Below, piece after piece: positions 4,066 through 57,110 of a DNA stretch of 64,000 nucleotides (positions within the stretch are counted from its first letter, which is position 1; each line of letters begins with the position of its first letter). The notes beneath the pieces were generated by a model, which was not told where the DNA came from, searched no databases, and saw nothing but the letters and a program-made list of their open reading frames with translations. The translations under genes were made by a program, and so were the position numbers. Source of the DNA: Quercus robur (Eukaryota; Streptophyta; Magnoliopsida; Fagales; Fagaceae); contig NC_065535.1 in the NCBI RefSeq assembly GCF_932294415.1, positions 82,543,862 to 82,607,861 on the forward strand, written 5' to 3'.

Positions 4066-4067
4066 GC

Positions 4068-4098
<31 letters not shown>

Positions 4099-4267: not shown

Positions 4268-4283
4268 TTTTTTGTGTGGTTGA

Positions 4284-4317
4284 GATGCTAAAATAACTTT
4301 TGAGTTATTTTAGCATC
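4284..4317. repeat. Perfect 15-bp hairpin
   Basis: GATGCTAAAATAACT and its exact inverse complement flank a 4-base loop (TTTG). It lies 17 bases beyond the CACTA-like end and probably is the core of a small MITE remnant. Confidence 0.75.
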
Positions 4318-5650: not shown

Positions 5651-5681
<31 letters not shown>

Positions 5682-7275: not shown

Positions 7276-7448
7276 GTTGGACTTAGGGCCATTTAAACCA
7301 TGGCCTAAGGCCCCTAACATAGAAAGGACCCCAAAAATATGGGGGTGGTAAGGTTTTTTTTTATAATTAAAGAAAAAAATGTGAGTTATGTGTACATTTT
7401 TTTTTCCCACTTTTTTTTTTTTTTTTGGAAAACGAGGCAGGTATTCAT

Positions 7449-10959: not shown

Positions 10960-11012
<53 letters not shown>

Positions 11013-11057
11013 GCTGGCGTGTCGGAACCGCATCGACACTGTGTTGGAGAAGTGAAA

Positions 11058-11088
<31 letters not shown>

Positions 11089-11193: not shown

Positions 11194-11201
11194 ACCATAA
11201 T

Positions 11202-12723: not shown

Positions 12724-12802
12724 TTTTTCCCACTTTTAAGAAGGCCTAAAATATTAGATTTATGCTAGCATATTACAAATTTTATTAAATAGGTCCTATA
12801 AA

Positions 12803-30170: not shown

Positions 30171-30953
30171 AAATAGTTGTAAATCACAACTTTACATTAG
30201 TCCTAGGACTATCTTTAATGCAGAGCTCCTTGATCTGGTTACTACAGAAATGAAAATGGATTTTGTTCTAGTATTAGTATTTGCATATGATTTTTGTATT
30301 TCACATTATCTCATGCCACAATTGCATTTTAGGAACTGAAGGATTCAAATATCATTTCTTATAGTTGCATTTCATTTAATAGTAATAGCTTGATAATTTT
30401 GACATAATTAGTTAGTTTTCTCTATGATAGATTATTGCCTGTTCATTTCAATAATATTTTCTTTAAGATGCTGATCGCTCCTCACATTGCAGATTGCTTT
30501 GCTCATCTAGGCCAAAATGCTTCTGCACAAGGTATATCACTATTGCATATTGCTTCTAATAAAAGTTAATCTTTTCTCCTCATAACTGATCGATAGGGTT
30601 GTCTAACTGTATGTTTTCATGAAAATATTATTTTTTAGAATATTATTGTTGATCATTTTCCTTCACCTCTCTCACTCCCCAGCGAATCCTTTGGTAATCT
30701 CTAAATATGGAGCAAGCAAAGATTACCTTGGTTGTACGGATTTAGCAAATAGGAAAGCTATTGATGATCGGGTAGATATACTTGACTGTCTTGTTCGATT
30801 GGCAAAGTCTAGGACTCCATTTTGCTTTACTATTAATCTTTTCTAAGCATACCTGTGCTAATAGAATTAGGTTGAATGGTAATTATATTGGTCAAATTTG
30901 GTTTTGGGGGCTCTGGTGTGTAGAACCATCTTCAACTCTTTGCACAGGACATT
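30171..30953 (+). other. Unrecognised exon-like segments
   Basis: Between introns with plausible borders are the readings ELLDLVTTEMKMD (near 30222), IADCFAHLGQNASAQG (30493-30531, between AG and GT) and NPLVISKYGASKDYLG followed by CTDLANRKAIDDRVDILD (30685-30800). The last looks protein-like and conserved, but I cannot name the family. It may be the tail of the gene whose earlier exons surround the MULE. The CACTA end at 30954 cuts the region. Confidence 0.35.
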
Positions 30954-31345
30954 CGCTACAAAAAAAACGTTCTATAGTTGCGTTTTTAAAATGAGGCTAT
31001 AGCTCAGAAAAACGTGGCTATAGGACGATTTGGCCTATAGCCACCTTTTTTTAGACCGCGTTTTCAAAAGTGGCCTAAACCCTGTGACTATAGGCCTGAG
31101 GGGTCTATGGCTGCACTTTTTCAAAGGTGGCTATAGGATCGGACCAATGGCCATGTTTAAAACGTGGCTATTTTTTTTTTTTTTAGCAAAATGTAAGCGA
31201 GATATAGCTATAAGTGAAAGCTATAGCTACGTTTAAAACGTGGCTATAGGTGAAGGCTATAGCCACGTTTTTTAAATGTGGCTATAGGACATATTTTTAG
31301 CCGCGTTTAAAAACGCGGCTATAGCCCCTTTTTTTTTTCTTTTTC
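30954..31345 (+). mobile_element. CACTA-type terminus with subterminal repeats
   Basis: Starts CGCTACAAAAAAAACG, one base from the CACTACAA consensus, followed by at least ten direct and inverted copies of a TATAGCCACGTTT-type unit, including AACGTGGCTATAG facing CTATAGCCACGTT. This crowding of short repeats inside the end is typical of En/Spm elements. The orientation places the interior to the right, toward the captured gene fragments. The opposite end was not found. Confidence 0.65.
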
Positions 31346-32543
31346 CTAGGCCAAATGGCTTAAGAAGGATCTCCACACCTGAGTTTAAGTTAAGCAAGCT
31401 TTAGCTTTGTTTTCTACACAAGAGACTATTATGTGGAAAATTCATTATACTAGTGCAATCACCACAACTTATCTAGAAGAAAATAACCCAGCATATGCAA
31501 CATCAATTGTTTATTAGAACATCTTCAGCAAGAAAGAACATAATATTCCAAATGTATCACTCAAAATAAGCAGTATAAGTAAGATATAGAAATAGGCTGT
31601 GTAACCCACTAGATGAATTAACTAGCATGGCAAAGAGTAGTATTCCAAATCCTATTTTTCATATATCAAACCTAACTACCAAGTATCTAAGAGGTTAGTG
31701 ACTGAGATTAAGGCTTTTTATTAGTTGAGTTGACTAGTTACGTAAACATTAGAATAACACCACATCTGGCTGCACAGAATTAATATATAACTGGCAGCTA
31801 AGAATAAACAAAATATAGATTTATCTAAAGAAAAATTTAGAGTACCCAAGCCTGAAATGCACAATTTATTTATATGAGAATCAACCAAGTCAAAAAGCTA
31901 GAGGGTGTAATCAATTTCCATGCAACCAAATTAACACAACCCAATTGTTAATCACTAACTGGATTAGCTATAGGTCAAGAATAAATTGCAACACCATTAA
32001 TAGCCTTCCTTTGAGGACCAATCAGCACAATGCTGAAGAAAGATATTCACTATCAAATAAATCATCAAATTCTTATCAATGTAACTCTCCTCAAACGAAA
32101 TCCTTGTTTTCAATTTCAATTTACTGTATTCCTTACAAGATCTCCACCCACACAGTAAACAATTAAGTTGGGACTCCTAACCTTTTGCTTAGTAAATCAA
32201 AATAGGCATTTAACCAAACATAACAAAAAAGAAATCCAAATCTGAATATGATGGAAAAGAAACCAAAGAAACAAACTTTAAAATGAAATGAAAGATATTC
32301 ATATATCCACCCCCCCCCCCGGCCCCCCCAAAAAAAAAAGTTCATATGAGTATAAAAGGGGGGAAGAACATAACACAGTAACTATTCTCAAGGACTAAAT
32401 TGTGAAATAAAAAGAAAACTAAAAGAATCTTAGTTTGAGTCACAACTCCATTGCCTAAAATTTTTTGTAATTGCATTAGCCAATTCCAATAGGCCAGAAG
32501 TAATCAAAATTGATATTTACTAAGAGACAAATTCAATGCATAC
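31346..32543. other. Non-coding DNA between CACTA end and CDPK exon
   Basis: A/T-rich, without protein-like frames. On the minus strand it would be the intron following the CDPK exon. A C-rich run lies at about 32311-32329. Confidence 0.4.
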
Positions 32544-32670
32544 ATAGGGCTTGGGCAGCAGTTTGTCTTGCCCGAGGATCCTTCACCAGTAACTTCTTTA
32601 CAAAATCTTTCACACTGTTGCTTATGGTTGGCCATGGTTTGCGGCGAAAATCAAGCTTGTTTCATAAGAC
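32544..32670 (-). pseudogene. CDPK exon fragment (kinase domain C-lobe)
   Basis: The minus strand reads from an AG acceptor (TTTTGTAG) through [18 protein letters not shown] and [19 protein letters not shown] to a GTATGC donor. This is the C-lobe signature of plant calcium-dependent protein kinases of the CPK16/18/28 group. Both splice borders and phase are those of a real exon. Near its start TGA replaces an expected Arg codon, so it cannot encode a product. Neighbouring kinase exons and the EF hands are absent, so this is an isolated captured exon. Confidence 0.8.
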
Positions 32671-32729
32671 CTACAAAAGTGAGACAGTTAGATAAGTATA
32701 CAAAAGGAAACTATGGGGGGGGGGGGGGG

Positions 32730-32882
32730 GGGAAGAAGCAATATTGAAGACACAAACTTTATGGGAGATTGAGATAGATAAGGCTCGACGATTGAACTCA
32801 TTTTCTGCAAATTCACCGAACCGGGTTTTCCACAACTCCATTGCCTCTCTTCCTCTCCCTCACCCCAAGACATCACACACAC
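32730..32882 (-). pseudogene. Possible TBC/RabGAP first-exon fragment
   Basis: The minus strand has a 5'-UTR-like stretch (to about 33000), then MSWGEGEEERQWSCGKPG and SVNLQKMSSIVEPYLSQSP, ending at IKF. I associate this N-terminus with plant TBC-domain Rab GTPase-activating proteins, from memory and with moderate doubt. No TBC catalytic motifs follow; the frame runs into a poly-G run (32714-32732 on the plus strand). It lies just upstream of the CDPK exon on the same strand. Confidence 0.35.
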
Positions 32883-32968
32883 CTCGATTCCGCAAACTCC
32901 TTCGATCCCGCTTCTTCAGCGCTGATTCTAGTAAACGACGACGAAGCAAAGATCGTCAAAGCAAATAG

Positions 32969-33904
32969 AAAAAAGCAAATCAAAACCCTAATCGCAATTG
33001 CAAACAATACAATTATTTGAAATTTGTTGAGTCTTTGGGGACAACAATCCAACCAAGGTTAAAAAAAAGTTCAAAGATTGGAAGGATAAGAACTAATATT
33101 AAAAATTTTCAAGTTTATAGAATCTTTTTAGAGGCTAAGTATTGACAACCAAATTGATAATATGCATCTGGCAAAATATTGATGCCAAGCATGGATAACA
33201 TCTTGGTCGTGTATTTGAGATTGAGATTGAAACGGAAAAGTGAAAGGCCAAAACTCAGAATAGCAAGAGGTAGAAAGCTATGAGTTTGTGTAATTGAGGA
33301 GACGTTTGGATTTTGCAAGAGTAAGAGACATAAAGAGAGAGTTGTGTTATGAGAGGGAACTTCAAAGGCACTACATTGTTCTATGTGCATGGGGTTAATT
33401 GTAGCTATTAATTATTACTTATTAGAGTTTGGCTGGGATAAAAAATGGGCTTGGGCTTGCTATGAACTTTGATCTTGGACAAAATATATTGTTAATTTTA
33501 AATATATTGTTAATTAAAAATGGGCTTGGGCTTGGGCTTGAGCATCATCGATTGTTGTTATACTAAGTCCTAACCTTACTTGTTTGCAAACTAAGAAGAG
33601 GTAATTAATTAGGAAATCAAATTTGTTATTGTCTTTTGATATCATACTAATTAATTGACGGCTTTAATTTTTTATTTGGCTAAATAGTAAATACTGCTTA
33701 TGGAGCATCTTCGATTGTAAAGAGGAAAAACAAGAATCAAAGAAAATAAGAACTATAGAAAGGGATTTTACGAACCATAATCTAAAATTCATATCTTACC
33801 AAGAAATATGCATCATAGATAAATGACTATCTGAAATCGAAAATCTAGAAATTGCAAAACAAGAAGTTAATTCCCTTAATGTTTTACCTAAGGAGTGGAC
33901 AAAC
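32969..33904. other. Non-coding DNA between captured fragments
   Basis: A/T-rich with short direct repeats (AAAATGGGCTTGGGCTTG at about 33443 and 33518). On the minus strand it follows the PIP5K exon donor at 33904, so part is intron. A minus-strand frame at 33115-33390 has no recognisable motif. Confidence 0.35.
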
Positions 33905-34041
33905 CTTTACTTCAGATTTCCTCAAAGTCTTAATCATGAATCGATCATCTTGGGACAGGAAAAAAACACTCCCACTTTTCCCAAGAGAAGAAAGTTCCCG
34001 CAGAGCATTATTCCCACAAATGGACATCATGTAATCAGCAG
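33905..34041 (-). pseudogene. PIP5K exon, 3' part (split by the Gypsy element)
   Basis: The minus strand encodes [35 protein letters not shown] and TLRKSEVK, then a GT donor at 33904. This is the start of the kinase core of plant phosphatidylinositol-4-phosphate 5-kinases, including the glycine-rich loop GKSGS and the ATP-binding lysine in MIKT. The same exon continues at 44142-44175 beyond the retroelement; the 5-bp duplication AGCAG marks the cut within GCTGCT (Ala-Ala). No frame damage apart from the insertion. Confidence 0.88.
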
Positions 34042-34532
34042 TGATGACGTCGAAAATTGTCACCAGTGGGTCACACCGTACTCGCGACTCGAAGCGAACC
34101 TGCACGACAGAAGCAATCGAAAGAAGTCCTTCAAAGAGCACCGGTGTGGTGCCGGCCAAAAGCTCTCCGACGGTCAAGTTAAAATTCTTCTGTTTTACTT
34201 AGAGCGTTAGAGAGGGTCAATTAAAGCGTACCTCGATTTCTGAGGGTGGCAGGCCTTTTATAGTGGCAAAGGGTTGACTTTTCTTCTTGGTTTCCAAATC
34301 TTTTCCATGTGGGACTCTAATACAAATTCCTCTGAGCGTGGTGAGCAAGGATTTCCATTTTTGGCTCTTAAGGCTTTTCTAGGCGATATGGACCTCGGAT
34401 CATGGGCCCTTACTACGTCTGTCAGCAATGGGCCTTCAAAGTGCAGGGGATCATCTTTATACAGGCCCACCAGTTCCGATCCGTCAGGCCCATTAAGGTA
34501 GGCCCATCAGGCTCTATATTTTACCATCTTCA
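34042..34532 (-). repeat. Gypsy 3' LTR
   Basis: TGATGACG...CATCTTCA on the plus strand, 491 bp, identical to 43651-44141 except one base. The polypurine tract lies beside it (34533-34555). Confidence 0.96.
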
Positions 34533-34555
34533 GTTGCCCCCTTCACCCCAATGGT
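34533..34555 (-). promoter_or_regulatory. Polypurine tract
   Basis: The minus strand reads TTGGGGTGAAGGGGGCAAC up to the LTR edge: the purine run that primes plus-strand DNA synthesis, in the expected place. Confidence 0.75.
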
Positions 34556-34827
34556 CCGTCACCTTTTAGGTCAAAGGATCAATGGGGTGACGATCCTTAC
34601 GTATGGGTATGGCGGGCATTTTATGACGGATTCATGCAAGATAGGACGACGGTTCCAGATGGATCAACCCGTCAGAGGAAGATTCATCAAGTTGACGGTT
34701 ACATGACGGGTACAAATCTGTTGGTACGTACTGACAGGTTGTCAGCATTTATTAAGCATGCCACGTGTCACTCTCTGAATGGCCGTTGTATAGGATCGAA
34801 GCGTCGCTTCGTCTTCCGTGCATCTCC

Positions 34828-34840
34828 TATATATATAAGG
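34828..34840 (+). promoter_or_regulatory. TATA box of the antisense gene in the Gypsy element
   Basis: TATATATATAAGG, followed by a pyrimidine-rich leader (about 34850 on) and a GT-AG leader intron from about 34978 to 35095, ending immediately before GAAATG at 35096. Confidence 0.6.
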
Positions 34841-35098
34841 CGCCTCACTCTCTCATTTTTCAATTTTCACTCAGAAATCATTTGTCAGAGCGAAGCCGTC
34901 AACCTTGTCAGAGTAATCCGTCGAGGACGAGCATCTACTGATTACACCAACCGTCACCTCTCCTCTGCTAAGTTTGGTAAGTACTTCTAATATACTATAG
35001 TCAAGTTACATTTCCGTCCATGCATTGTTGTTAGGCTTTCCATGCCCGTCAATACTTTCAAACCTGTCGGTCTTAGGTTTCATTGTCAATTGTAGGAA

Positions 35099-37237
35099 AT
35101 GTCTAGTGCGTCAAGTAACCAGTCGGTGGTTCGTGATGGGACGGAATACGAGGATGTATACCCGTCCGGTCATAAAGACCAAGAGAGCCCCGGCGAAGAT
35201 AGGAGTCCGTCTTCCTCCTCTTCATCCTCAACAAATGAGGATGTGGAGATAGTTGAAATAGAGGGTTCTGATGACGACGGGGATCAAGCACTGGAGTCCG
35301 TTGTAGGTGCTGATGGACTAAGGCAGTTCATCATGTTGCCAGAGTGGACGGTGCATAGGTTTACATCCGTCATCAGGGAGAAACATTTCAGCACCTTCAG
35401 AACCAACTTCCAAATCCCGGACTATGTTTCCATCCGTCTACCATACGTGTCGGAGAAGTGTTACTATGAAGGGGTAGACGGTGTCGGAGTGTACGAGCAG
35501 GCGTTGAAGGCTGGACTTCGATTCTCGCTTTCTACACTTCATAGGGAACTTTTACAGTATCTGGGGTTGTCCGTCACCCAGATATCCCCTAACGCCTGGA
35601 GGGTCTTCATAGCCATGGAGATTCTTTACGGTGCAATGTCGGATGGGGAAAGGAAACTGACGGTCCGTGAATTTCTTCACTGTTACCGTCCAGACGAGAT
35701 TTCTGGATCAAGGGGGATGTATAGTTTTGCTAGTCGGAGCCCCTTGTTGAAGGTGATCTTTGAGACCCCAGACTCAAATAGAGACTGGAAGAGTCGCTAC
35801 TTCTTCCTGGAGGGTGACAGATGGATGAGCCATCCAGGGGAGACGGAGTACATGCCCGTCGACACAACTTGGGCAGTGATAAATCAATCGTGTATGCATC
35901 CGTCTTAATTTTGTAAAGCTTTTCGTATCCGTCCATTTTTATGTGTATATCTTGATCGTCTTTCTCTGCAGGTAGACAGCGCCCACAAGTCAGCCTTGAG
36001 GAGTTTAGTTTCCTTGAAAAGATTTGCAGGAAAACTACGCCGGAGGAAAGGACTTGGGCTAAGTTGGTGAACCCGAGGACCATACATTGGTACTGCGACG
36101 GTCCTGAGCCCACCCAAGAGGCAATTAGATACGACGAGCAAGTTCATAGACGTAAGCCCGTCAACTTTACTTTGCCATTTAACTGACTTTACTTAGTTTT
36201 AATTTCATCCGTCATTATTTGCAGAGATGGAAGACGCAAAAAGGAGAGCTTTGATCAAATCCCAAGCCGTCAAGAAGAGGGAATCCGGCGAAGTGGTGCC
36301 TAAGGTGTCGGCTTCAGCCCCTAAGAGGAAACCGACATCAAAATCCGACCGTCCATTTAAGCAACCAAAGGTCTCTCTTGAACCTGTGGTCGGTTTAATG
36401 GCTGAGGGTAACAAGACCGTCACCCCAGCTAAGTAGGGGACGGGTAAAGGATTGATGACGGCCCCAGACGGTAAGCAAGAGAGACCTCCTTCCCTTCTCC
36501 GCGACGACTCCAAGTATGCATTGGAGAAGCTGTCGTCCATCATCACGGCGGAAGACTATGAAGATCTTGGAAACCACTCGACGGAGGCCATGGGCGAGAC
36601 GGGCCTCTTTGCCGTCGCTCAGGTTGGTTATGTCCGTCAAATAAGTTTATTTTTCTTTTTCGTTGTTATTTACATTATGTGACGGTCTCTTTTCTATTCG
36701 CAGTCCTTGGTCATGATGAAGGGACTACTGGACCGGTGTCTCAACCGTGAGAGTACCTTGGACTAGGTGCGCGCGAAGGCGAAGCAGACGGAGGAAGAGC
36801 TCGGAAAACTCCATAAATGGAGGTCCAAGATGGAGAAGAAGCTGGAGCTTTCTGAGAAGGCAAGGAAGGAGCTGGAGGAGAAGACGGTCTCTGCGCTGAC
36901 GGTCATAGAGAAAAAGGAGGCGGAGATCAAAGAACTCAAGGAAGAGATCCGTCATGTGAAAGAGGTAGCCGTCGAGGAGTACCGAAGCTCAGAGTCCTGC
37001 TTAGGCGAGCTGTCAGATTCTTTCCTTCAAGGCTTCGATGATTCTCTCCGTCAAGTAAAGAAGGCCTATCCAGAGCTGGATTTGTCAATGGTCAAACTTG
37101 AGGACCAAGCCCAGACTTCTGCCCTCCCCGTCGCCTCCGAAAATACGGAGGACCTCTTTGGCAAAGACGCTGCTCAAGGAGACGGAGAGTCCGTCCCGTC
37201 GAAGGATGTCCAAGTCACTGAACAAAAGAAAGATTAA
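35099..37237 (+). pseudogene. Antisense spliced ORF of Tat retrotransposon
   Basis: Four exons fit one frame: 35099-35891, 35972-36151, 36225-36622 and 36704-37237 (GT-AG borders, phases agree), about 634 codons. Exon 1 has an acidic Ser-rich start, then a globular part (LRQFIMLPEWTVHRFTSV, YEQALKAGLRFSLSTLHREL, PNAWRVFIAMEILYG) resembling the 'putative gypsy-type transposon' domain found in plant elements. Exon 4 is a strong coiled coil rich in K/E (EEELGKLHKWRSKMEKKLEL). Antisense ORFs at this place are known in Tat elements such as Grande and Retand; their role is unknown. Two in-frame TAG codons (36434, 36764) interrupt this copy. No catalytic motif is visible. Confidence 0.75.
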
Positions 37238-37564
37238 TGTCTATGTAATTTATTTTGAGAACAATCCGTCCCTTTTTTTTTTTTTTTTTTTTTTTTATTT
37301 ACATTTCAGAACAATCCGTCCTCTTTAATTGTATTAAACACTTGCCTTTGGGGCTTTTGGCTTAATGTTCATATATGCTTTCTATCATTGTTTGGTACTT
37401 TGTTTAAAGGTCCGTCCTCCTTCTTGAGGAAGGATTTTTGTGAGAATATTTGTTTATCTGTGATACTCCGTCCACATTGCAAACTTGTTATCTTGTGTTG
37501 ATTGAGCATTTACATCCGTGAGGATTTTCCTTTTCCGTCTATTTTTAGAGGTTCATTATGAGGA

Positions 37565-38150
37565 CCCGTCCACTTTGTGGCGTTGTACATCACTTTTTTA
37601 AATGTGATGCCTATTTAATGGACCTGTAAAAAATTTTAACGTAGTCAGTGGTCCGTCCACTTCGCTTGCATGTTCTTCCATTATTTCCGTCCACCTTGTG
37701 GACTTGAGTTATCATCCCTGTAGGATGTCATCATCCCTGTGGGATGGCCCGTCGGCCTTGTGGACTTTATTTTATGTCCGTCCATTTAAGGACTCACAGT
37801 GATCGTCCTTGTAGGACGATCCGTCCGTCTTGTGGACTTTCGATTGTATCCGTCCACCTTGTGGACTTGAGTCATCATCCCTGTGGGATGGTCCGTCCAT
37901 CTTGTGAACTTTGGCTACTATCCTTGTAGGATGATCCGTCCATCTTGTGGACTTTATTATGGGTCTGTCCATCAATTTTGTGGATTGAGGGCGATCGTCC
38001 TTGTAGGGCGATCCGTCCATCTTGTGGACTGCATTTATATCCGTCCATCTTGTGGACTTGAATGATTATTCCTGTAGTATCTTATCATCCCCGTAGAATG
38101 ATCCGTCCATCTTGTAGACTGCATTTGTATCCGTCCATCTTGTGGACTTT
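37565..38150 (+). repeat. Array of about 20 short hairpin repeats
   Basis: Degenerate units of two kinds alternate: GTCCA-CCTTG-TGGAC (or TCTTG loops) and CATCC-CTGTA-GGATG. Some units have CGTCC-TTGTA-GGACG stems, extended to 8 bp (GATCGTCC with GGACGATC) near 37803. Most units fold as a 5-bp or longer stem with a 5-base loop, and where one stem arm changes the other usually changes with it. It follows the antisense gene and precedes the end of integrase. Confidence 0.75.
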
Positions 38151-38352
38151 ATTTAGTTTCCGTTAATTTTGTAGACAATTATAATGACATCCAAGTAGAA
38201 GATCAAAGTAATATCTGATTATAGAAATGCGTAAAGGAAAAAAATGCCTGCCCCCTTTGGGCTTAAAAAGGGCACAACAAAATTGTAGCAAAAAGACAGT
38301 TAAAAGAGAAACTTATAAAAAGCTCAAACAAAAACTGGTTGCCGTGTCACTA

Positions 38353-40060
38353 CTACTGGTAGTATTTCCTCAAATGCTCGGCATTCCATGGATGTGGCAG
38401 CTTCTCTCCATCTGTTGTCTCCAGGTGGTACGTTCCTTTCCTTTTCCATGACGTAACTCTATAAGGTCCTTCCCAGTTGGGGCCGAGTTTTCCTGTGCAG
38501 GGTCTTTAGTTGCACCCATGACCTTCCTGAGTACGAGGTCTCCAACTTGGAAGTTTCTATGTCGGACCCGGGTGTTGTAATGTCTGGACATGCGATCATT
38601 GTACCTAGCGATCCTTTGCTCCGCCACCGACCTAACCTCATCTATCAGGTCCAGCTGTAGCCTCAGGGATTCGTCATTCCTGCATTCGTCATGGTTGTGA
38701 ACCCTGTAACTTGTGAGTCCAACTTCTGCTGGGATGACCGCCTCGCTCCCGTATGTCAGTCGAAATGGCGTCTCTCCTGTCGGAGTCCTCGCCGTTGTCC
38801 TGTATGCCCATAGTATGCTCGGCAATTCTTCGGGCCATATGCCCTTTGCCCCCTCGAGCCGAGTCTTGATAATCTTTAACAGGGATCGGTTCGTGACTTC
38901 AACCTGGCCATTAGCCTGAGGATGGGCGGGTGATGAGTAGTGGTTTTTTATTCCTAGCTGAGTGCAGAAATCCCGGAAGTGGCCGTTGTCGAACTGCCTC
39001 CCGTTATCTGAGACAAGAACTCTTGGAATACCGAACCTGCATACGATGCACCGCCAGACAAAACTTCTAATGTTTTTTTCTGTAATGGTGGCCAAGGCTT
39101 CCGCCTCTACCCATTTTGTGAAGTAGTCGATACCCACTACCAAGAACTTCAGCTGCCTTACCGCCGTTGGGAAAGGTCCCATGATATCTAGTCCCCACTG
39201 AGCGAACGGCCATGGAGCCGTTATAGGGGTTAGCTCCTCAGCTGGTTGTCCGATGAAATTGCTGAACCTTTGGCATTTGTCGCAGCTTTTAACGTAAGAC
39301 TCGGCATCCTTCTGCATGGTTGGCCAGTAATACCCAGCTCGTACCAGTTTGTGCACTAACGAGCGCAATCCGGAATGGTTCCCGCATATTCCTTCGTGTA
39401 CTTCCCTCATTACGTAGTCTGCCTCTTCAACCCCGAGACATCTTAGATAAGGACGGGAGAAACCTCTCTTGTAAAGAATGTCTTTTATCAAGACGAACCT
39501 TGCCGCTTGGACTTTTAGCTTTCTCGCTGCCTCCTTCTCTTCTGGCAATATCCCGTCCTTTAAGTATGAAGTTATCTGCGTAGTCCAGTTTCTTTCGGAG
39601 CGTATCTCCTGCATGTTGTCGGGGTCTATTAGCGGAAAGATTTGAATAAAGGAAAGTACATTACCCGGTGTCATCATATGTTCTGCTGAAGCGGCTTTGG
39701 CTAGCCGATCGGCGAGCTCATTTTCTCCCCTGGGGATCTGGACGAACATTGCTTTTAGCCCGTCGACTCTCGCCCTTACTTGATCAAGATATCTCTTCAA
39801 CCTTTCCCCTTTGCATTCATAATCTCCGTTTACTTGATTGGTCACGACTTGAGAGTTGCAATGCACGACCACACTTTCAGCTCCGGCGGCTTTGGCTAGG
39901 TCGAGTCCTACTGCCACCGCTTCGTATTCTGCTTCATTGTTGGTAATGGGGAAGTCGAGACGGACCATACATTCAATCTTGTCTCCTTCAGGTGACAGCA
40001 ATACTATGCCGGCTCCTCCAACTCGCTTATTGGATGATCCGTCGGTGTAGATGTCCCATG
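38353..40060 (-). pseudogene. Gypsy pol, 3' part: second RNase H and integrase
   Basis: The frame carries the archaeal-type RNase H (ITNNEAEYEAVAVGL; ENELADRLAK), the integrase zinc domain (HEGICGNHSGL, KSCDKCQRF) and the DDE core (GLDIMGPF, VSDNGRQF, ANGQVEVTNRS). A C-terminal region with VGDLVLRKVMG follows. It is out of frame with the upstream part: the join is at a run of seven C's (about 40060), where an indel separates the frames. Near 38510 a one-base loss shifts the last 50 codons; the frame shown ends 38370, the natural stop would be 38353. All visible catalytic residues are present. Confidence 0.9.
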
Positions 40061-43000
40061 GGGGGGTTCTTTTGCCCCCTTGTCCGCGTCACGCGTAAAC
40101 TCTGCTATGAAGTCGGCTACAGCTTGTCCTTTAATGGCCACACGTGGACCGTACTTGATGTCAAACTCACTCAATTCTATTGCCCACAGCGTCAGTCGAC
40201 CCGCGGTTTCAGGATTACTCAGTGCCCTTCGCAAGGGTTTGTCGGTCATTACGTTCACAGTATGGGCTTGAAAGTAGGGCTTGAGCTTGCGAGCCGCCGT
40301 GACCAACGCAAAAGCGAGTTTCTCCATAGGTTGGTATCTTTCCTCGGCACCGCGGAGCGCCCGGCTGGCGTAGTACACGGGCTTCTGTGCCCTGTCCTCC
40401 TCTCTAATTAAGGCCCCGCTGACGGCCACCGGAGAGACAGCCAAATAGAGGAAGAGTTCTTCACCTGGTTGCGAGGGGCTCAGTAGAGGTGGTGAAGATA
40501 GATAGGTTTTTAACTCCTCGAAGGCTCGCTGACACTCGTCCGTCCACTCGAATGACTTTTTCAATGTTCCAAAGAAGGGTAAACACTTGTCCGTCGCTCT
40601 CGACACAAATCTATTCAATGCCGCTACCTTGCCGTTAAGGCTCTGTACTTCCTTCACGTTTCTCAGGGGGGCCATCTCCATTATGGCTCGGATTTTGTCC
40701 GGGTTAGCTTCAATCCCCCTTTGAGATACCATGAATCCTAGGAATTTGCCTGCTGTTACACCGAATGCGCACTTTCCCGGATTGAGTTTCATGTTGTAGG
40801 ATCGAAGCGTGCCGAATGTTTCCTTGAGATCTTCCAAGTGGTCTTCCTCCTTCCGGCTCTTCACCAGCATGTCGTCGACATAGACTTGGACATTCCTCCC
40901 GATTTGCTGTGCGAACATCTTGTTCATTAGTCTCTGGTATGTTGCCCCTGCATTCTTCAGGCCGAATGGCATTACTTTGTAACAGAAGAGTCCTTGACTG
41001 GTTACAAACGAAGTCTTCTCCTGATCGTCCTCGTGCATGCGGATCTGGTTATAACCCGAGAAAGCATCCATGAAGCTTAGCAATTGGTGTTGAGCCGTCG
41101 AGTCTACTAGGATGTCGACCCTTGGAAGGGGATAACTATCTTTGGGGCATGCTTTGTTAAGATCGGTGAAGTCCACGCACATCCACCATTTGCCGCTCGT
41201 TTTCTTCACCATTACCACATTCGCCAGCCAATCGGGGTAGTAGACTTCCCTGATGAAGCTTGCCTCTTGGAGTTTGCGGACCTCTTCCGCTATTGCTTGG
41301 TCTCGTTCCGGGGCGAATACTCTCTTCTTTTGTCGGACGGGTGGAAACGAGGGCAACACATTCAACTTATGTACCATGACCGAGGGATCGATTCCTGGCA
41401 TATCGTCATGGCTCCAGGCGAACACATCCTTGTTGCTTCTCAAGAAAGTTACGAGCTCTTGACGGATTGCGGGTTTGGCAAGCGTTCCGATCTTGGTGGT
41501 TCGGTCTGGATTGGAACTGTCGAGAGTTATCTCCTCTAGCTTCTCTGTAGGTTCTGCCGTCGTTCGGTGTTCTTCTATGTTCAAGGCCTGGATCTGGTCT
41601 TCCACCTCCATCATAGCTACGTAGCATTCTCGTGCGGCAATTTGACTTCCGCGTAGCTCTCCTACCCCATACTCCGTTGGGAACTTGATCATCAGGTGGT
41701 AAGTTGATGTTGCCGCCTTCCACGAGTTGAGCGTGGGTCGTCCAATAATAGCATTGTAGGCTGACGAGCAATCGACCACCAAGAATGTTACGTCCTTGGT
41801 GATTTGTTGGGGGTAATCTCCTACTGTCACCGATAACGTGACTGCGCCCAAAGGGAATATTCTACTCCCTCCGAAACCAACGAGCGGGGCGTTTGTCGGT
41901 ATTAGCTGCTCCCTGTCAATCCTCATTTGTTGGAACGCCGGATAATACAAGATGTCAGCCGAACTACCGTTGTCGACCAACACTCGGTGGATATTGTAGT
42001 CGCCTGCCCGCAAGGTGACGACGAGGGCATCGTCGTGTGGATGGTGTAGGCGTCTTGCATCCTCTTCCGAGAACCCGATAATGGGGCATTCCCTTCTTGC
42101 CATCTTTGGCACTGTACCCGCCAACTGGACATTCTGTACCATCCGAAGGTATGTTTTGCGAGCCTTTTTCGACGATCCGGCCGCGGTTGTTCCTCCAATT
42201 ATCATCCTTATGTCCCCCAATGGGGGTCTTGGTCGCTCGTTTTCTCGACGGGGGTGTTGTTCTTGTGGGGGTTGATCCGTTCTCTCCTTGCTGAAGAACT
42301 TCTTCAGCTTCCTTTGTCGGATAAGGGCTTCGATTTGTTGCTTCAAGTCGTAGCAATCGGCCGTGTCGTGACCATGGTCACGATGGAAGCGGCAATATTT
42401 GTCTCTGGACCTTTTGTTGGGATCACTCTTCAGCTTTCCCGGAAACGTCAGGGATCCTTCGTCCTTAATCTGCATTAGGACTTGGTCTATCGGAGCGGTC
42501 AACGGGGTGAAACTTGTGAACCTTGCGCCCATGGGTTTTGGACGTCTCTCCTCCCTTCGATCTCTCATTCTTCCTTTCTTCCGCCCCTGGTCCTGTCGGG
42601 GATCCTCTTGTCTGTCTCTTTTCTTGGGTCTATCTTCTCGGGCTAATAGTGCGTCTTCAGCGTTCATATACTTGGTGGCCCTGTAAAGCACCTCCGACAT
42701 GGTCTTTGGGTCGTTTTTGTATAGGGAGAACAAAAATTTACCCCCCTTCAGTCTGTTCGTGAATGCTGCCACTAGTATCTTGTCGTCGGCTTCGTCGATC
42801 GAGAGCGCTTCTTTATTGAAGCGTGATATGTAGGCCCGTAACGTCTCCTCCTCTCTCTGCTTGATATTCATTAAACAAGCCGTGGATTTCTTATACCGAT
42901 GTCCTCCGATGAAGTGCGTAGTGAATTGAGCGCTCAGCTCCTTGAAGGTGCCGATGGAGTTTGGTGTTAGCCGGCTGAACCAAATCCTTGCTGCGCCCTT

Positions 43001-43585
43001 TAGGGTTGTAGGGAACGCCCTGCACATAATTGCGTCTGCCACTCCCTGAAGGTGCATCAGGGTCTTGAAGGTCTCTAGGTGATCGAGAGGGTCCTTGATT
43101 CCGTCATAACTATCCATACTTGGCATGCGGAATTTACTTGGCAGGGGGAAGGAATTGACGGTTGCCGTAAATGGCGAGTCAGTCCGGTTGACAAGGTCGT
43201 CAAGATCATTGGACAATCGCCCCTTGAGAGCGTTCATCAGTACTTCCATCTGTTCCTTCATCGCCTGCATCTCCACGATGATGGGTTGTGGAGCTGTATC
43301 CGTCACTGAAGGGATGCTAGCGTCCCGTCGCACTTGTTTGCTCGGGGCGTTGCTCTCCTGTGGTCCGTCATGATTCCTCCTTTCAGCGCTGGTTCCTTCT
43401 TGATCCGCTCCTTGGTTATTGACCGCCGCACTCTTTTGGTTTAGCTGCTCTTCTAGGTCGTGGTTTTGTTTGGTGAGGCGCTCCACGGCTGCGGCGAGTG
43501 TCCTGACCTGTCTCTCAAGGGCAGTCGTAGGGGCTTCCTCTTCTTGAGCGTCGTTAGTGGTTGCCATCGAGCGTGTGAGTACCAT
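40004..43585 (-). CDS. Gypsy gag-protease-RT-RNase H polyprotein, 5' part
   Basis: The frame is open from inside the LTR, but the likely start is the ATG at 43585 (MVLTRSMATTNDAQEEE), after the primer site. In order: a coiled coil (ALERQVRTLAAAVERL), the gag core (FRMPSMDSYDGIKDPLDHL), a zinc-knuckle-like CRFHRDHGHDTADC (about residue 395), the protease site VDNGSSADIL (about 535), the reverse transcriptase with CVDFTDLNKACPKDSYPLP and YVDDMLVK (about 900), and RNase H (PVYYASRALRGAEERYQ). It ends at 40004 shortly after the frameshift into the next part. No stop codon interrupts 1,190 codons, consistent with a recent insertion. Confidence 0.92.
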   Translation of the reverse strand: MVLTRSMATTNDAQEEEAPTTALERQVRTLAAAVERLTKQNHDLEEQLNQKSAAVNNQGADQEGTSAERRNHDGPQESNAPSKQVRRDASIPSVTDTAPQPIIVEMQAMKEQMEVLMNALKGRLSNDLDDLVNRTDSPFTATVNSFPLPSKFRMPSMDSYDGIKDPLDHLETFKTLMHLQGVADAIMCRAFPTTLKGAARIWFSRLTPNSIGTFKELSAQFTTHFIGGHRYKKSTACLMNIKQREEETLRAYISRFNKEALSIDEADDKILVAAFTNRLKGGKFLFSLYKNDPKTMSEVLYRATKYMNAEDALLAREDRPKKRDRQEDPRQDQGRKKGRMRDRREERRPKPMGARFTSFTPLTAPIDQVLMQIKDEGSLTFPGKLKSDPNKRSRDKYCRFHRDHGHDTADCYDLKQQIEALIRQRKLKKFFSKERTDQPPQEQHPRRENERPRPPLGDIRMIIGGTTAAGSSKKARKTYLRMVQNVQLAGTVPKMARRECPIIGFSEEDARRLHHPHDDALVVTLRAGDYNIHRVLVDNGSSADILYYPAFQQMRIDREQLIPTNAPLVGFGGSRIFPLGAVTLSVTVGDYPQQITKDVTFLVVDCSSAYNAIIGRPTLNSWKAATSTYHLMIKFPTEYGVGELRGSQIAARECYVAMMEVEDQIQALNIEEHRTTAEPTEKLEEITLDSSNPDRTTKIGTLAKPAIRQELVTFLRSNKDVFAWSHDDMPGIDPSVMVHKLNVLPSFPPVRQKKRVFAPERDQAIAEEVRKLQEASFIREVYYPDWLANVVMVKKTSGKWWMCVDFTDLNKACPKDSYPLPRVDILVDSTAQHQLLSFMDAFSGYNQIRMHEDDQEKTSFVTSQGLFCYKVMPFGLKNAGATYQRLMNKMFAQQIGRNVQVYVDDMLVKSRKEEDHLEDLKETFGTLRSYNMKLNPGKCAFGVTAGKFLGFMVSQRGIEANPDKIRAIMEMAPLRNVKEVQSLNGKVAALNRFVSRATDKCLPFFGTLKKSFEWTDECQRAFEELKTYLSSPPLLSPSQPGEELFLYLAVSPVAVSGALIREEDRAQKPVYYASRALRGAEERYQPMEKLAFALVTAARKLKPYFQAHTVNVMTDKPLRRALSNPETAGRLTLWAIELSEFDIKYGPRVAIKGQAVADFIAEFTRDADKGAKEPPHGTSTPTDHPISELEEPA

Positions 43586-43626
43586 GTAACTCTTTTGTCT
43601 AAGAAGCGATAATGTGTTATGACGAT

Positions 43627-43650
43627 CGTGTTCCCACAGACGGCGCCAAC
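43627..43650 (-). promoter_or_regulatory. Primer-binding site
   Basis: The minus strand after the 5' LTR reads GTTGGCGCCGTCTGTGGGAA, the TGGCGCCG-type site of plant Gypsy elements. I did not verify the matching tRNA. Confidence 0.7.
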
Positions 43651-44141
43651 TGATGACGTCGAAAATTGTCACCAGTGGGTCACACCGTACTCGCGACTCG
43701 AAGCGAACCTGCACGACAGAAGCAATCGAAAGAAGTCCTTCAGAGAGCACCGGTGTGGTGCCGGCCAAAAGCTCTCCGACGGTCAAGTTAAAATTCTTCT
43801 GTTTTACTTAGAGCGTTAGAGAGGGTCAATTAAAGCGTACCTCGATTTCTGAGGGTGGCAGGCCTTTTATAGTGGCAAAGGGTTGACTTTTCTTCTTGGT
43901 TTCCAAATCTTTTCCATGTGGGACTCTAATACAAATTCCTCTGAGCGTGGTGAGCAAGGATTTCCATTTTTGGCTCTTAAGGCTTTTCTAGGCGATATGG
44001 ACCTCGGATCATGGGCCCTTACTACGTCTGTCAGCAATGGGCCTTCAAAGTGCAGGGGATCATCTTTATACAGGCCCACCAGTTCCGATCCGTCAGGCCC
44101 ATTAAGGTAGGCCCATCAGGCTCTATATTTTACCATCTTCA
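43651..44141 (-). repeat. Gypsy 5' LTR
   Basis: 491 bp, the partner of 34042-34532. It would hold the promoter for gag-pol transcription on the minus strand. Confidence 0.96.
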
Positions 44142-44175
44142 AGCAGCATCAATCTTGAACAATTCAATTAAATTC
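44142..44175 (-). pseudogene. PIP5K exon, 5' part (split by the Gypsy element)
   Basis: The minus strand, after an AG acceptor (AATGTAG), encodes NLIELFKIDAA and runs into the retroelement. The reading resumes at 34041 with DYMMSICGN. Phase fits the donor of the preceding exon at 45086. Confidence 0.85.
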
Positions 44176-45085
44176 CTACATTGAATTTTCAGAAGGACAT
44201 GTATATCAACATCATTTTTTTTTCCTTTTCTTTTTCCACCGATGAATATCAACAGCACAAAAGGATAAAAAGAGGCTCCCCTGCTGGGGAGAGGCAGTTT
44301 AAGATCAACACAGAATTATAAGGACACATGATAATGATCTGCATATACATTTTTTACCAACTCATTGACTTAAAAAATCATAGGTAAATGTAGAGTAACC
44401 TCCAAAATAAATGATGATAAGCACAAAGTCAAGAATTCAAATATTCCTAGATTAATAATGACATGATTCGGATGTACAATCTGGATGGTGTGTCAGCATC
44501 CTATAAAAGTGCTCATAGAGTTGAAACAAAAGTATCATAGCTGCCTTCATGCTACAATTCATTCACGTTTAAGCCTTGGGACTTTTAAAAGAAAAAAGAA
44601 AAAAAGTGTTGAGACTAGACACAAGGGCAGTATCAACTGTAGCACAATAGGTCATCCAGGATTTAGCAATTAGCATTCAGGGACACTGGTGTTTCAGAAT
44701 ATAGTGTATTAAGACTGAAGTCACATGGAGGCTTAAGTATTATGCTTCAGAATTCACTATGTATGTATAAGGAAAGAAATAGGACATACAATATAAATCA
44801 AGATTATCCATGTTTGAATGAAAAGAATTTGAATGACATAAGCACTCCACCTATAAGAAACGACCATGCAATACAGCTTTATCAAAACAAATAAGAGGAA
44901 CACTGTATCAAAAAATTTTCTAAATCATATACTTTAGCCTGGCTGTGATCCTAACTGAAACAAAGCAGCTTACCAAGCACTAGGATTAACCATCACAAGC
45001 ATGCCTCATAAACACATCATACAAAATAAATGAGCTGCATAGAAGATTAACCTAAGTAGCAATAACGGGAAGGTCAACTACCAAC

Positions 45086-45200
45086 CTGAAAACCATTGGG
45101 CAATAATCTTTCCACTTTAAATCCACTGATTGATGAGGTGGTGTCAATTGGGACCCTTCTTTAGGAAAATTCATCCAAAAGCTAGCACGGGGAACAAAAT
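45086..45200 (-). pseudogene. PIP5K exon (start of kinase domain)
   Basis: The minus strand encodes [37 protein letters not shown] between a TTTCAG acceptor and a GTTGG donor. This is the conserved entry into the plant PIP5K catalytic domain, B-type isoforms by memory. 44176-45085 is then the intron and contains nothing else I recognise. Upstream PIP5K features (MORN repeats) are absent; instead a 5-phosphatase exon lies 491 bases upstream. Confidence 0.88.
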
Positions 45201-45691
45201 CTGAAACACCAATAAGTGAAATTTATCATTTTTATAGAAAATTGTGCATAATTTCTACCAATAAACTAGTAGTGTGTACAAATAATCATGAAGTCAAAAA
45301 AAACCCAAGGAAGAGATCACCATATTCACATAAGAAAAAGAATAAAGCTCAATAAATTTTATCAAAAGAAGAAAGAAATACCCAGTTCTGTACAATATGC
45401 TACTGATTCATTCAATTTTCATAGGACATCCCAGCATCTGACTATAAAGTTTGTCATTTTTTAAGGTCAGCATTCTACTATTTTCAACATATTCTACCTG
45501 AACTTATTAGTGAGATGGTTTTTAATATAATTTTTTTTTTTTTTTTTTAACTATAAAGTGTTGAAAAACATTGATAGGCACTATTAGCTTTGACAATCAA
45601 ATGTATCTTAGTCAAACACTGAAGTTTACACAAGACACAAATTGACCATCATCAAATGAAGCACCAGTCACAGGGATGAGGAAGTCCTCAC

Positions 45692-45796
45692 CCAAGAATG
45701 TAAATATCTGCTGGCTCTTCTGTACAAAGCCAGTCATCAATCTCAAGATCTTCACATGGAAGTCTTCTAGCAACATTCCAAGTACCAATTGTCACC
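45692..45796 (-). pseudogene. Inositol-polyphosphate 5-phosphatase exon
   Basis: The minus strand encodes VTIGTWNVARRLPCEDLE and IDDWLCTEEPADIYILG between a CTGTAG acceptor and a GTGAGG donor. This is the start of the catalytic domain of plant type I inositol-polyphosphate 5-phosphatases, which remove the 5-phosphate from inositol phosphates or phosphoinositides. Only this exon is present; the following FQEVVPL-type exon and the catalytic residues downstream are missing. GTWNVAGR is the usual motif and here reads GTWNVARR. Confidence 0.85.
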
Positions 45797-45802
45797 CTAC
45801 AG

Positions 45803-46335
45803 TAATTAAGTGTCATTATAAGAATCCAGTGAGAAACAAAATAGTAATACCTATAGAAAAATGGAATTTGATCCTAAGTCTTTAATTAAAACATTCACGC
45901 ATAAGGACTTTTTTTGTTTTTTATTATTCAATCGTTACAACATGGTGAGGGTGACCTCATTCCTCATAATTCATAAAGAAGAGCCAACAATGTCATTAAA
46001 GTAAAAGACTGTTGATCATATTTCTATACATGCCACCATTGGTATTTTATTTTCAGTATTTTTCCTAATTGACAAATTCAACCCAGTTAATTAAGCTATT
46101 AAAACCTGCAATGGTAACTTTAAAATCAGTGGAAATAGTGGTTTGTTCGAATGGCATGATTTGGGCATTTGGATTTGGATTTGAGTGATTAAAATCCAAA
46201 TATTTTGTTTGGAGAGTTTAAAAAATGTTAAGGATTTGGATTTGACAAATCCATCAAGAATTTTAAACCTTTAAAATGCTTGGATTTGAAATAACTCCTA
46301 AAATCAATGCTTGGATTGAGGGTGTCCTCAGCAAT
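45803..46335. other. Non-coding; junction to receptor-gene DNA
   Basis: No gene is seen. From about 46085 the sequence matches 13566-13600 (a GGTAACTTTAAAATCAGTGG-like block), so the boundary of the captured-fragment region lies between about 45850 and 46085. Repeats of an ATTTGGATTTG type occupy 46160-46310. Confidence 0.45.
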
Positions 46336-46984
46336 CACTAGGATATAATTCTATTCCTTTCAAAAGTGAATTGCTTGTATTTAAGGGAAAAGTTCTTGAG
46401 TATTCCACCACTCTTCAAACGGTAAAAATTATAAATTTTTCCAAGAACAATTTATTTGGAGAGATCCCTAGAGAAGTGACTAGTCTCACAGGATTACAAT
46501 CATTGAATTTGTCATTTAATATCTTGATTGGAAGGATTCTTGAGAATATAGGTGATATGAGATCATTAGAATCTATTGTTTTCTCAGTAAACCAACTTTC
46601 AGGTCAAGTTCCTAAATGTATGTCAAGATTGACATATGTCACTTGAACTTGTAAAACAACAATTTAATTGGAAGAATTCCTTCAAGCACTCAGCTACAAA
46701 GCCTCAATGAGTCCAGTTTCTTTGGAAACAAACTTTGTGGACCTCCACTTACTGATAATTATACTATAAAGGTTGTAAAACCCATCTTTGAAAACAAATG
46801 GAGCAAGCATTTCCATCCACTTAAGCTAGATTGGTTTTATGTGAGTACGACACTTGGATTTGTGGTTGGGTTTTGGGTTGTATTGGGTCCCTTACTATTG
46901 TACAAGCAGTGGAGAATCATGTACTTTCAATTCCTTAATCACCTAGGGTACAAGCTTTGGAGTGTTGTGGCACAAACTTGGTAG
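46336..46984 (+). pseudogene. Receptor-like protein, C-terminal pseudogene
   Basis: Parallels residues from the non-LRR island to the end of the gene at 15573: KVLEYSTTLQTVKIINF, then LRRs (LTGLQSLNLSFNIL), the cap NKLCGPPLTDN, the membrane segment GFVVGFWVVLGPLLLYKQWR and a tail ending TAG at 46984. A frameshift near 46640 and a TAA directly after it break it, and the first 80 per cent is missing. The 3' flank also matches that of the intact gene. The loss of the second cap cysteine (DNY for DNC) fits decay without selection. Confidence 0.9.
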
Positions 46985-49849: not shown

Positions 49850-51073
49850 GTTTTAGATTCCACTTAAGCCACTTGATAACTCATTTTTGCCTCACGACGC
49901 CTCTTTGATCAAAGCCATCCCTCTAAGCCTTGAAAGCTGTGAGGATAAGCTATTTTGGCCTAGGAATTCTAATGGACTTTATTCCGTCAAATCCGGATAC
50001 AAGCTGCTCATGGAGTGTGAAATGATAGACAGTCCTTCTTCCTCTGATTTGTCACTAACTAAAAAAGTTTGGAAGGGTATTTGGAACCTTAGAATTCCAA
50101 ATAGAGTGAAAACTCTCTTATGGAGAGCTGGTTCGGAGGCCTTACCCACCAGAGTGAACCTCAGGAAGAGAAAAATTTTGATTGATGACTCCTGCCCTCA
50201 CTGTAATCTCGACAAAGAATCCTCTTTCCGTGCACTTTGGTCTTGCTCAAGCTTGTATCCTGTGTGGAAAGTTCATTTTAGTTGGTTAATCAAGTTAGCT
50301 GCGAAGTGCACTTCTCTGCTGGATATCATTCAGCTCTGCCAAGACCAAAGCAACCTATCGGAATTACTTGCCATGACAGTAGCACTGATTTGGGCGCGTC
50401 GGAATCAGATCCGAGCTAGTGAAAATACACTTCCAATCGAGAAAATCAACTCAATGGCCCTTGAAAACCTCCAGGAATTCCAGCTTGCTTCCTCCACTCC
50501 CCATCGTGCTCCTCCCACGGTCAGGCCAGCTAATTGGTCTCCTCCACCTCTGGGTTGACTGAAGGTTAACTTTGACGGTGCAACTTTCGCCTCCAAAGGC
50601 CTTGCTGGTTTGGGAGCCATTATCTGGAACGACCAAGGTCTAGTTATGGCTGCCTATACACATCCTATTCCTCTGCCTACTTCTGTAGAGACAGTGGAAG
50701 TGTTGGCAGCGCGTAGTGCAATCAGCCTGGCAAGGGAACTGAACTTTGACAAGGTAATCTTCGAAGGCGACTCGGAGATCATCATCAAAGCCATTAACAA
50801 TGGGGACCTTTCGGCTTCAAGCTTTGGTCACATTCTTAAAGACATTAATCTCCTATCCAATGCCTTTCACAAGGTGTCTTTTTGCCACACCCGCCGACAA
50901 GAGAATAGAGTAGCGCATGATTTGGCTCGATTGGCTTGTAATTTTTCTTCTTATCAAGTCTGGATGGAGGATGTTCCTCCAAACTTATCCTCTGTGTATT
51001 GTTCTGACTTCCCTGAATGAATTGCTCCCCCCTATTCTTGGGGTGGTTTCTCAAAAAAAAAAAAAAAAAAAAA
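49850..51073 (+). pseudogene. LINE 3' part: zf-RVT and RNase H with poly(A)
   Basis: One frame from 49887 carries the zinc-binding RT-associated domain (NRVKTLLWRAGSEALPTR, CPHCNLDKESSFRALWSC), and after a single TGA (50556-50558, where Trp is usual) the RNase H domain. RNase H residues are visible: KVNFDGATF, TVEVLAARSAI, IFEGDSEIIIKAI and HDLARLACN. It ends at 51018-51020 and is followed by a poly(A) run at 51055-51073, so this is the 3' end of a 5'-truncated LINE. RT and endonuclease are absent. The clean frame with one stop suggests moderate age. Confidence 0.88.
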
Positions 51074-56030: not shown

Positions 56031-57110
56031 CAACCACCACCGCCCATTGCAAAATCAAACCCATCAACCCAAACCTAAACTCGATTAGCAGCATAATAAC
56101 CCACCAGTCTTTGAGAACCAAACCCAAGTCGATTTGAGTCCAAACCCAAACCCAACAATGGTGGAGCATTCACACTTGGCGCCTTTGACTTTGTCCTTAT
56201 CCAACAATGATGAGCTCCGACAGAGAGAAAAAGAGAGATCTTCGAATTTCTAATGAGAGAGAGAGAGAGAGAAAGAGTTAGGATAAGAGGAGAGATGAAG
56301 AGTCATGGAATAGCAAGTTCAAATGAGAGAGACCTCAAAGGAGGGAGAGAGGTGTTGAATAAAGTAAGAGTTTTTTTTTTTTTTTTTTTTTTTTTGAGAA
56401 GAAAAAAAATAAAGTTTTTAAGTTTTAAAGGTTGTCTTATTTTAGATGTTACTTTACTAATTTGTATTAAAAAAAAAATGCATTTTGACTCCATATATGG
56501 TATTTTTTGCATTTTTTTTTTTGAGAGTACGAGCTATGTCACATCTTTGGAATTTTTGCATTCAAGTTGCTCACTAATTATCAAGATAGTAAAAATTCAT
56601 GAATTTTTTTGTTTACATAAATTTTTTAATTAGTCTGTATATCTCACGTACTACTAGACTACAAGTCGTACTAAACAACTTAATTATCTAAAAGTCTAAA
56701 CGACACAAGGAAATGACCTCATACATAACATCACTACTCCCAATTCCCATAACCTCCCAAACACGCCTCTAAAAAGGAAGGGACGACCCCCTTTCCCCAC
56801 TGATATTTTTCCACAATCCCCGACCAAGCATGAAACAACAACAACAACAACAACAAATACTAGAGATTTCTCCAATTTTTAATCTCTCTCTGTCTTTCTC
56901 CAAATGAAACCCTATTTGGTCAATTTTTCCTTTACTCTAACTCACTGATAAAACATCCCCACCTCGCTTCCATCTGTAACCTCAATTTCTCTCTTCCATT
57001 ATTTTCAATCCACTCCAATTTCTAATCCTTCGATTTCACTTTTTTTTTCGCAAATTCAAAATCCCCAAAAAAAAAATTTCTAGGGTTTTCGGTTTTTTCT
57101 TAATTGGAAA
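56031..57110. other. Upstream region and leader of the J-protein gene
   Basis: Contains (GA)n at about 56254-56275, a T run at 56371-56395, then from about 56700 a C-rich, CT-rich stretch with (ACA)n at 56834-56856 and many CTCTCT motifs up to the ATG. These look like a plant core promoter and 5' leader; I find no clear TATA box. Confidence 0.5.

Follow-up and report, generated by a model that had tools for sequence, protein, structure and literature searches.

How did pieces of several genes come to lie side by side on one strand, next to what looks like the end of a CACTA transposon? The question is raised by a 64,000-nt stretch of the Quercus robur genome (C2:82543862-82607861, contig NC_065535.1 of assembly GCF_932294415.1), hereafter called the window. 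Our answer is that the locus is very probably what remains of a Pack-CACTA (a non-autonomous CACTA transposon) that carries DNA copied from about nine places, has lost its right end and was split by the insertion of a Gypsy element.

Materials and Methods

The genome (785.7 Mb in 42 contigs) was searched with four window queries, 31346-34000, 44144-46700, 30200-31600 (left flank) and 45860-46345 (right flank), and the top-matching loci (designated L plus a number) were extracted and then aligned to the window. The search scores only top candidates, and the source of a piece is here the best match found. Exon edges were inferred from AG/GT signals together with the source locus, 30 open reading frames (ORFs) from source loci or elements were scanned for protein families, and the realigned matches between blocks and other loci form the basis for counting how much of the interior is covered.

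Results

The element opens with a CACTA-type end, starting at 30954, and roughly 390 bases of subterminal repeats, and its patchwork runs to 45857. Blocks matching other loci make up 4,155 of the 4,290 interior bases, with the other 135 in gaps between blocks. The cargo consists of pieces of five genes (CDPK, TBC/RabGAP, protein disulfide isomerase, PIP5K and 5-phosphatase) and four other blocks. Leaving aside a related element on contig C39, which we call the sibling, the best match of each gene piece is one locus on another contig, with an identity of 90.7-98.5% and a genome-wide E-value of at most 4.4e-41, so that the gene fragments noticed in a preliminary description of the window are real far beyond chance. 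That description listed the 5-phosphatase, two exons of PIP5K, the start of a TBC gene and CDPK, all of which stand, and missed the fifth piece, protein disulfide isomerase, at 32893-33001 on the minus strand. Because this enzyme is among the pieces, the phosphoinositide and calcium signalling theme that had been suggested is unsupported. The statement that all gene pieces lie on the minus strand holds for five out of five, an agreement that simple arithmetic would produce by chance in about 6% of cases and that is at most suggestive.

The evidence that decides the class of the element is the sibling at C39:1661655-1666009, which is 4,355 bp long, has inverted CACTACAAAA ends on both sides, the right one ending at L019:8010, and is flanked by the target site duplication (TSD) AAT/AAT. 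A TSD of 3 bp is the rule for Pack-CACTA elements. Compared with the window copy, the sibling is 70.9% identical in the left terminal region, 92.8% over 31999-32882 and 85.7% over 33051-33666. The junction between a block from contig C38 and the CDPK piece, and that between the CDPK and TBC pieces, are found at the identical place in both copies, with a poly-C tract at the first that differs in length. Because a complete element with CACTA ends and a TSD carries the same junctions, Pack-CACTA, already the first candidate from the sequence alone, is upheld as the class, and Helitrons and Pack-MULEs are out for the shared part. We place the C39 sibling as a Pack-CACTA member and the window copy as a remnant, because no right CACTA end was found in the latter.

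On account of the shared junctions and of three-way difference counts, the C38, CDPK and TBC blocks were most likely captured once, with the window copy and the sibling parting soon after. Per 312 bases of the C38 block, 9 differ between window and source, 12 between sibling and source and 10 between window and sibling; the corresponding counts are 30, 26 and 27 of 409 for CDPK and 2, 6 and 5 of 129 for TBC. A separate arrival of each fragment, which had been named as an outcome that would overturn the first description, is therefore rejected for these three early pieces, which moved together, the remaining pieces not being covered by this result. The sibling holds only 31999-32310 of the C38 block and is without 31461-31998; it is also without the disulfide isomerase piece, having an AC repeat in its place, and beyond the match ending at 33666 it continues with sequence of its own that matches loci on C6, C3, C4 and others. 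Its only frames of at least 80 amino acids have 80 and 92, and the longest listed non-Gypsy frame in 31340-34041 and 44142-46700 of the window has 115.

Read from left to right, the cargo starts with the C38 block (31461-32310), which matches C38:45553153-45553994 at 95.2% over 855 columns, with 23 of 837 aligned bases differing. The CDPK piece (32337-32754, minus strand; exon 32544-32670) is 90.7% identical over 418 columns to C6:21024568-21024976. It is followed by the piece from the 5'-part of the TBC/RabGAP gene (32752-32880, minus), 98.5% identical over 129 bp to C39:9291085-9291213 and presumably its first exon, and by the N-terminal piece of protein disulfide isomerase, 95.4% identical over 109 bp to C38:34230448-34230556. 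The block at 32994-33503 has matches at several loci (C5, C4 and other copies), of 87% and 76% to C5:54188616-54190048, and that at 33540-33718 consists of three reordered pieces of C41:36742584-36743076 (89-91%), common to the sibling up to 33666. A block of only 70 bp (33719-33788) is 94.3% identical to C6:27470250-27470319. The PIP5K piece (minus) lies on both sides of the Gypsy element. Its left part (33783-34041; exon part 33905-34041) is 96.2% identical to C35 from 6696052 on and matches the PIP5K domain at E 2.9e-14, and its right part (44142-45204; exon parts 44142-44175 and 45086-45204) is 92.4% and 95.2% identical to C35:6696309-6697438. The last piece is that of the 5-phosphatase (45263-45857, minus; exon 45692-45796), with 94.5% identity over 595 columns to C41:37546416-37547004. 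At the threshold used, 20 of the 30 scanned ORFs had no family, and the scan gave no identity for the C38 block, the C41:36742 kb locus or the multi-locus blocks; two ORFs at the C6:27470 kb locus matched reverse-transcriptase families.

The identity of the gene pieces is drawn from their sources as well as from the window. The PIP5K source on C35 has six MORN repeats and pieces of the PIP5K domain in separate ORFs, which is more of the gene than was captured, and the CDPK source on C6 matches the two ends of the kinase domain, in each case under the Pfam cut-off. In the window, the part of the CDPK exon beyond the stop matches CDPK3 of the PDB (E 1.4e-6). For the 5-phosphatase the identity rests on the source gene on C41, which contains Exo_endo_phos2 (PF22669) over the cut-off at E 6.3e-9, because a PDB search with the exon alone gave a chance-level match only. 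In the TBC source on C39, a RabGAP-TBC domain (PF00566) over the cut-off lies on the strand of the captured piece and 3.7 kb further downstream (L027:8944-9258), and we infer that the piece and the domain belong to one gene. The source ORF at C38:34230448 matched protein disulfide isomerase structures in the PDB (best E 1.2e-10), mostly just past the captured piece; a Pfam thioredoxin match is weak and below the cut-off.

The introns align to the sources, and the capture thus took place at the DNA level. Splice sites had been described as kept, which is correct for the 5-phosphatase exon, the PIP5K exon split by Gypsy, the CDPK exon and one side of the other PIP5K exon. It is incorrect for the far edge of that exon (45086-45204), which is a capture junction in mid-exon and where the TTTCAG is not a splice site of the source, because the source ORF runs on. 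It is likewise incorrect for the presumed TBC donor, in which AAAG is followed by GTT in the source and by TTT in the window. The CDPK exon furthermore contains a stop (TGA in the window, AGA in the source), and with this stop and an exon cut mid-way the gene pieces look dead as proteins. Divergence from the sources varies by piece from 1.6% to 7.3% (CDPK against PIP5K, p = 0.012 in a comparison picked after the data were seen), and these values give no order of capture.

The Gypsy long terminal repeat (LTR) retrotransposon occupies 34042-44141 on the minus strand, with LTRs at 34042-34532 and 43651-44141 that are identical at 490 of 491 positions, a TSD AGCAG and, on the minus strand, reverse transcriptase upstream of integrase. 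It is a young, later event and was inserted in a PIP5K exon, of which 33905-34041 and 44142-44175 are the two parts (minus).

The left end and its subterminal repeats occupy 30954-31345 (plus strand). The end reads CGCTACAAAAAAAACG, with one mismatch to CACTACAAAA, and the end sequence in relatives such as L019 and L044 is CACTACAAAAAAAA. The CACTA-type end that was previously noted at 30954 is thus real, and it belongs to the element, whereas the earlier start at 31346 left it outside. A candidate TSD, ATT, adjoins it at 30951-30953. Many loci match 30954-31345, which represents a multi-copy CACTA end family, and further left-part element sequence (31346-31467, plus) is common to the complete CACTA element L024 (C38; TSD TTG/TTG) and to L025 (C35). 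We rejected a self-contained miniature inverted-repeat transposable element (MITE) of 400 bp at 30954-31349, because the sequence shared with L024 and L025 extends beyond 31349 to 31467 and a second end could not be made out. No further copy of the subterminal repeats was found in the window. The left-flank search gave four places whose homology to the host sequence ends at 30953, three of which were realigned (L039, L040 and L042; 80-87%); two other aligned loci, L041 and L046, stop short of it (30827, 30659). The left-flank matches on C39 and at C37:8602 kb lie 3.6-3.7 kb from leucine-rich repeat (LRR) matches on the same contig.

On the right, the 5-phosphatase piece is followed by about 10 unmatched bases and then by the flank, giving a breakpoint at 45858-45867 that has no CACTA end, and the paired end hoped for between 45800 and 46085 was not found. 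From about 45865-45868 the sequence matches four loci, three of them in LRR clusters (C39, C37) and one on C4 (81-87% over 45868-46144, with an LRR frame from 46320 in the window); L035 alone adds a 37-bp match, 45868-45904. What precedes the match in these four loci corresponds to other parts of the window (mainly 3632-7284) and to CACTA repeats, and to nothing beside the insertion. The host sequence after 30953, which is alike in L039, L040 and L042, was not found here save for a weak 44-bp match at 46035-46078, and no paralogue with a direct join of both flanks was found among the best 40 of 336 candidates. The right end of the window copy has probably been deleted, and a single deletion that removed it together with adjacent host DNA is the simplest reading.

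The junctions between blocks are of several kinds. Four have overlaps that match both sources: 31461-31467 (about 7 bp, one mismatch), 32752-32754 (3 bp), 32994-33001 (8 bp, with mismatches) and 33783-33788 (6 bp). At 33718/33719 the blocks meet bluntly, and five other junctions contain 3, 12, 26, 36 and 58 unmatched bases. No remnants of subterminal repeats or ends were found between the captured blocks.

Discussion

We propose that a CACTA transposase made elsewhere would bind the CACTA ends and subterminal repeats and move the intact element, to which pieces were added as DNA, introns included. The most likely route of addition would be that, during the repair of such a gap as may arise in the element, the polymerase switches to an unrelated template where a few bases match. 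An early set, consisting of part of the C38 block, CDPK, TBC and most of 33051-33666, would have been aboard before the window copy and the sibling split, which the shared junctions demonstrate for C38, CDPK and TBC. The C6 block and the PIP5K, 5-phosphatase and disulfide isomerase pieces could be later captures in the window copy or losses in the sibling, and a deletion may then have taken the right end and neighbouring host DNA. The window copy has lost the ability to move with a pair of ends of its own, and there is no sign of a working protein in its gene pieces. Matches to Transposase_21 are plentiful in the genome (150 of 150 over the cut-off when the best 150 of 292 candidates were scored, dozens of them without internal stops).

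Several observations weigh against this account. No right CACTA end was found in the window, including onward to 64000, and this copy therefore has a candidate TSD on its left side only. Of the four loci that share the right-flank sequence, the one on C4 sits within a complete CACTA element, which is why calling that flank host DNA rests on the three others. None of the 150 scored Transposase_21 matches was connected with the ends of this CACTA subfamily. The left terminal region is only 71% identical to that of the sibling, compared with 79-82% to elements on C6, and the ends and the cargo are therefore without one simple history. The sibling lacks the PIP5K and 5-phosphatase pieces, and the C6 block too, so that the arrival of the two gene pieces inside the element is only a proposal. 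Finally, in CDPK, PIP5K and 5-phosphatase, where exons were located, 16 of 517 exon bases differ from the sources as against 95 of 1792 for the rest (Fisher p = 0.046); with rougher exon limits, all gene-linked blocks and the C38 block, the counts are 19/536 and 122/2850 (p = 0.48). A ratio of exon to intron divergence of about one half is expected even for free copies, because the source genes are constrained, and the lower exon divergence neither shows nor excludes selection on the captured copies.

The pieces that the sibling lacks could also be explained if the locus had two origins, so that the DNA up to about 33670 would be Pack-CACTA cargo, and the C6 block, PIP5K and 5-phosphatase would be filler copied during repair of the break that destroyed the right end. 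That only about 10 unmatched bases, and no CACTA end, separate the pieces from the flank agrees with this. We nevertheless find it doubtful, since the PIP5K block of about 1.3 kb is longer than one would expect of filler and the later pieces lie on the strand of the earlier ones, although a five-out-of-five agreement at about 6% proves little. It is unlikely that the right half as a whole is a repair patchwork, in which the break left by the loss of the right end, within a cluster of immune receptors, was sealed with gene stretches of 70 bp to 1.3 kb from other chromosomes. If it were, break repair seeded by dying transposons would account in part for the gene-fragment mosaics that are attributed to transposon capture.

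Another route is offered by the fusion model of Catoni et al., described in PMC8903248 and PMC13317346, as far as these accounts set it out, in which neighbouring Pack-CACTA copies with complementary terminal deletions merge and take up the DNA between them. A copy with one end deleted, as here, is the intermediate that this model needs, and left-end relatives are common in the genome. We consider it quite improbable for this element, since the model takes local DNA and would leave subterminal-repeat remnants between captured pieces, whereas none were found and the sources lie on six contigs, with some pieces measuring only 70-129 bp. Although the junctions are few and there is no shuffled control, their mostly short overlaps or unmatched stretches appear to fit template switching better than the fusion of neighbours. 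Same-strand gene pieces with introns are typical of Helitrons too, and the preliminary description had kept a Helitron or Pack-MULE in play. With the shared cargo of the sibling sitting between CACTA ends with a 3-bp TSD, both are rejected for that part, no separate scan for Helitron ends having been made, and we give them hardly any credence. Even less can be said for decayed real genes or a tandem cluster of signalling genes: some splice sites are intact, and yet each gene piece has its source, with more of the gene, on another contig instead of in order nearby, which refutes it.

As a remnant of a Pack-CACTA, the window element belongs to a class that is already known and is a new, damaged example of ordinary Pack-CACTA/Tgm-Express biology. 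Tgm-Express1 of soybean, in the account given in PMC1947982, is a CACTA element that carries pieces of five unrelated host genes, the exons of which are spliced into transcripts, and with several kilobases of exons and introns from five unrelated host genes the two are nearly the same kind of object. Tgm-Express1 is described there as bounded by inverted repeats and sitting in an intron, whereas the window copy has no right end left, has LRR-receptor genes as its neighbours, is interrupted by Gypsy and is known here from sequence alone. With the Pack-CACTA and Pack-TYPE elements of Arabidopsis, rice and maize, as presented in PMC8903248, it has in common the CACTACAA ends and TSDs (both in the sibling) and gene pieces from multiple loci, and no transposase was found in it. 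Its junctions differ from the local-fusion model outlined there in their mostly short overlaps or unmatched stretches and in having no internal end remnants. The Chenopodium CACTA elements with captured gene fragments (PMC8978399) resemble it in their subterminal repeats and captured host fragments; the examples given there have element coding domains beside the fragments, and none were found in the window element. A literature search turned up no report of this element, which we do not claim to be unpublished.

We regard the element as a moderately valuable example of the order and mechanism of capture. It documents CACTA gene capture in this genome, with source loci, a complete sibling for comparison and events that can be put partly in order. 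The comparison of shared and unshared cargo is a small test of how capture occurs, in which local fusion should leave end remnants inside the cargo, and template switching should leave none and give short overlaps, which is what is seen. It also serves as a warning for annotation, as captured exons could be called gene models or pseudogenes.

Further relatives were noted among the aligned loci. A candidate third member at C6:45815800-45820825 has a left end and part of the cargo of the sibling. Across L048 and L044 (C6:45815800-45822326), the CACTA left end follows CAT and the sibling cargo is matched over 1,083 and 312 columns (94% and 90%), with no right end found in the stretch examined; in two other C6 loci, L045 and L047, the left end and its flank are 96-97% alike. 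At C4:56377899-56378070, 12 kb from a Transposase_21 match (C4:56389886-56390506), there is a match to the right end of this CACTA family, which marks a possible autonomous partner. Complete CACTA elements besides the sibling are L024, which was chosen for its end match, and L033 (TSD AGT/AGT), which was chosen for its right-flank match. The latter (L033:4239-8435, C4:51147738-51151934) contains about 1.1 kb of LRR-cluster sequence, 93.6% identical over 1,149 columns to the C37 LRR-cluster locus L032, and is apparently an independent capture in the same genome.

In the neighbourhood of the element, a repeat of about 170 bp lies just right of the insertion (46130-46313), is MITE-like and was found at 85-91% identity in 35 of the 40 places scored with the right-flank query. 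An open LRR-receptor-like frame of 1,056 amino acids with LRRNT_2 and many LRRs is located at 15522-18692 (plus). Pieces with reverse transcriptase, zf-RVT and RNase H-like domains at 10919-12745 (minus) and 49857-51017 (plus) are probably remnants of long interspersed nuclear elements, and a 377-amino-acid open frame with DnaJ and DUF1977 domains is found at 57084-58217 (plus).

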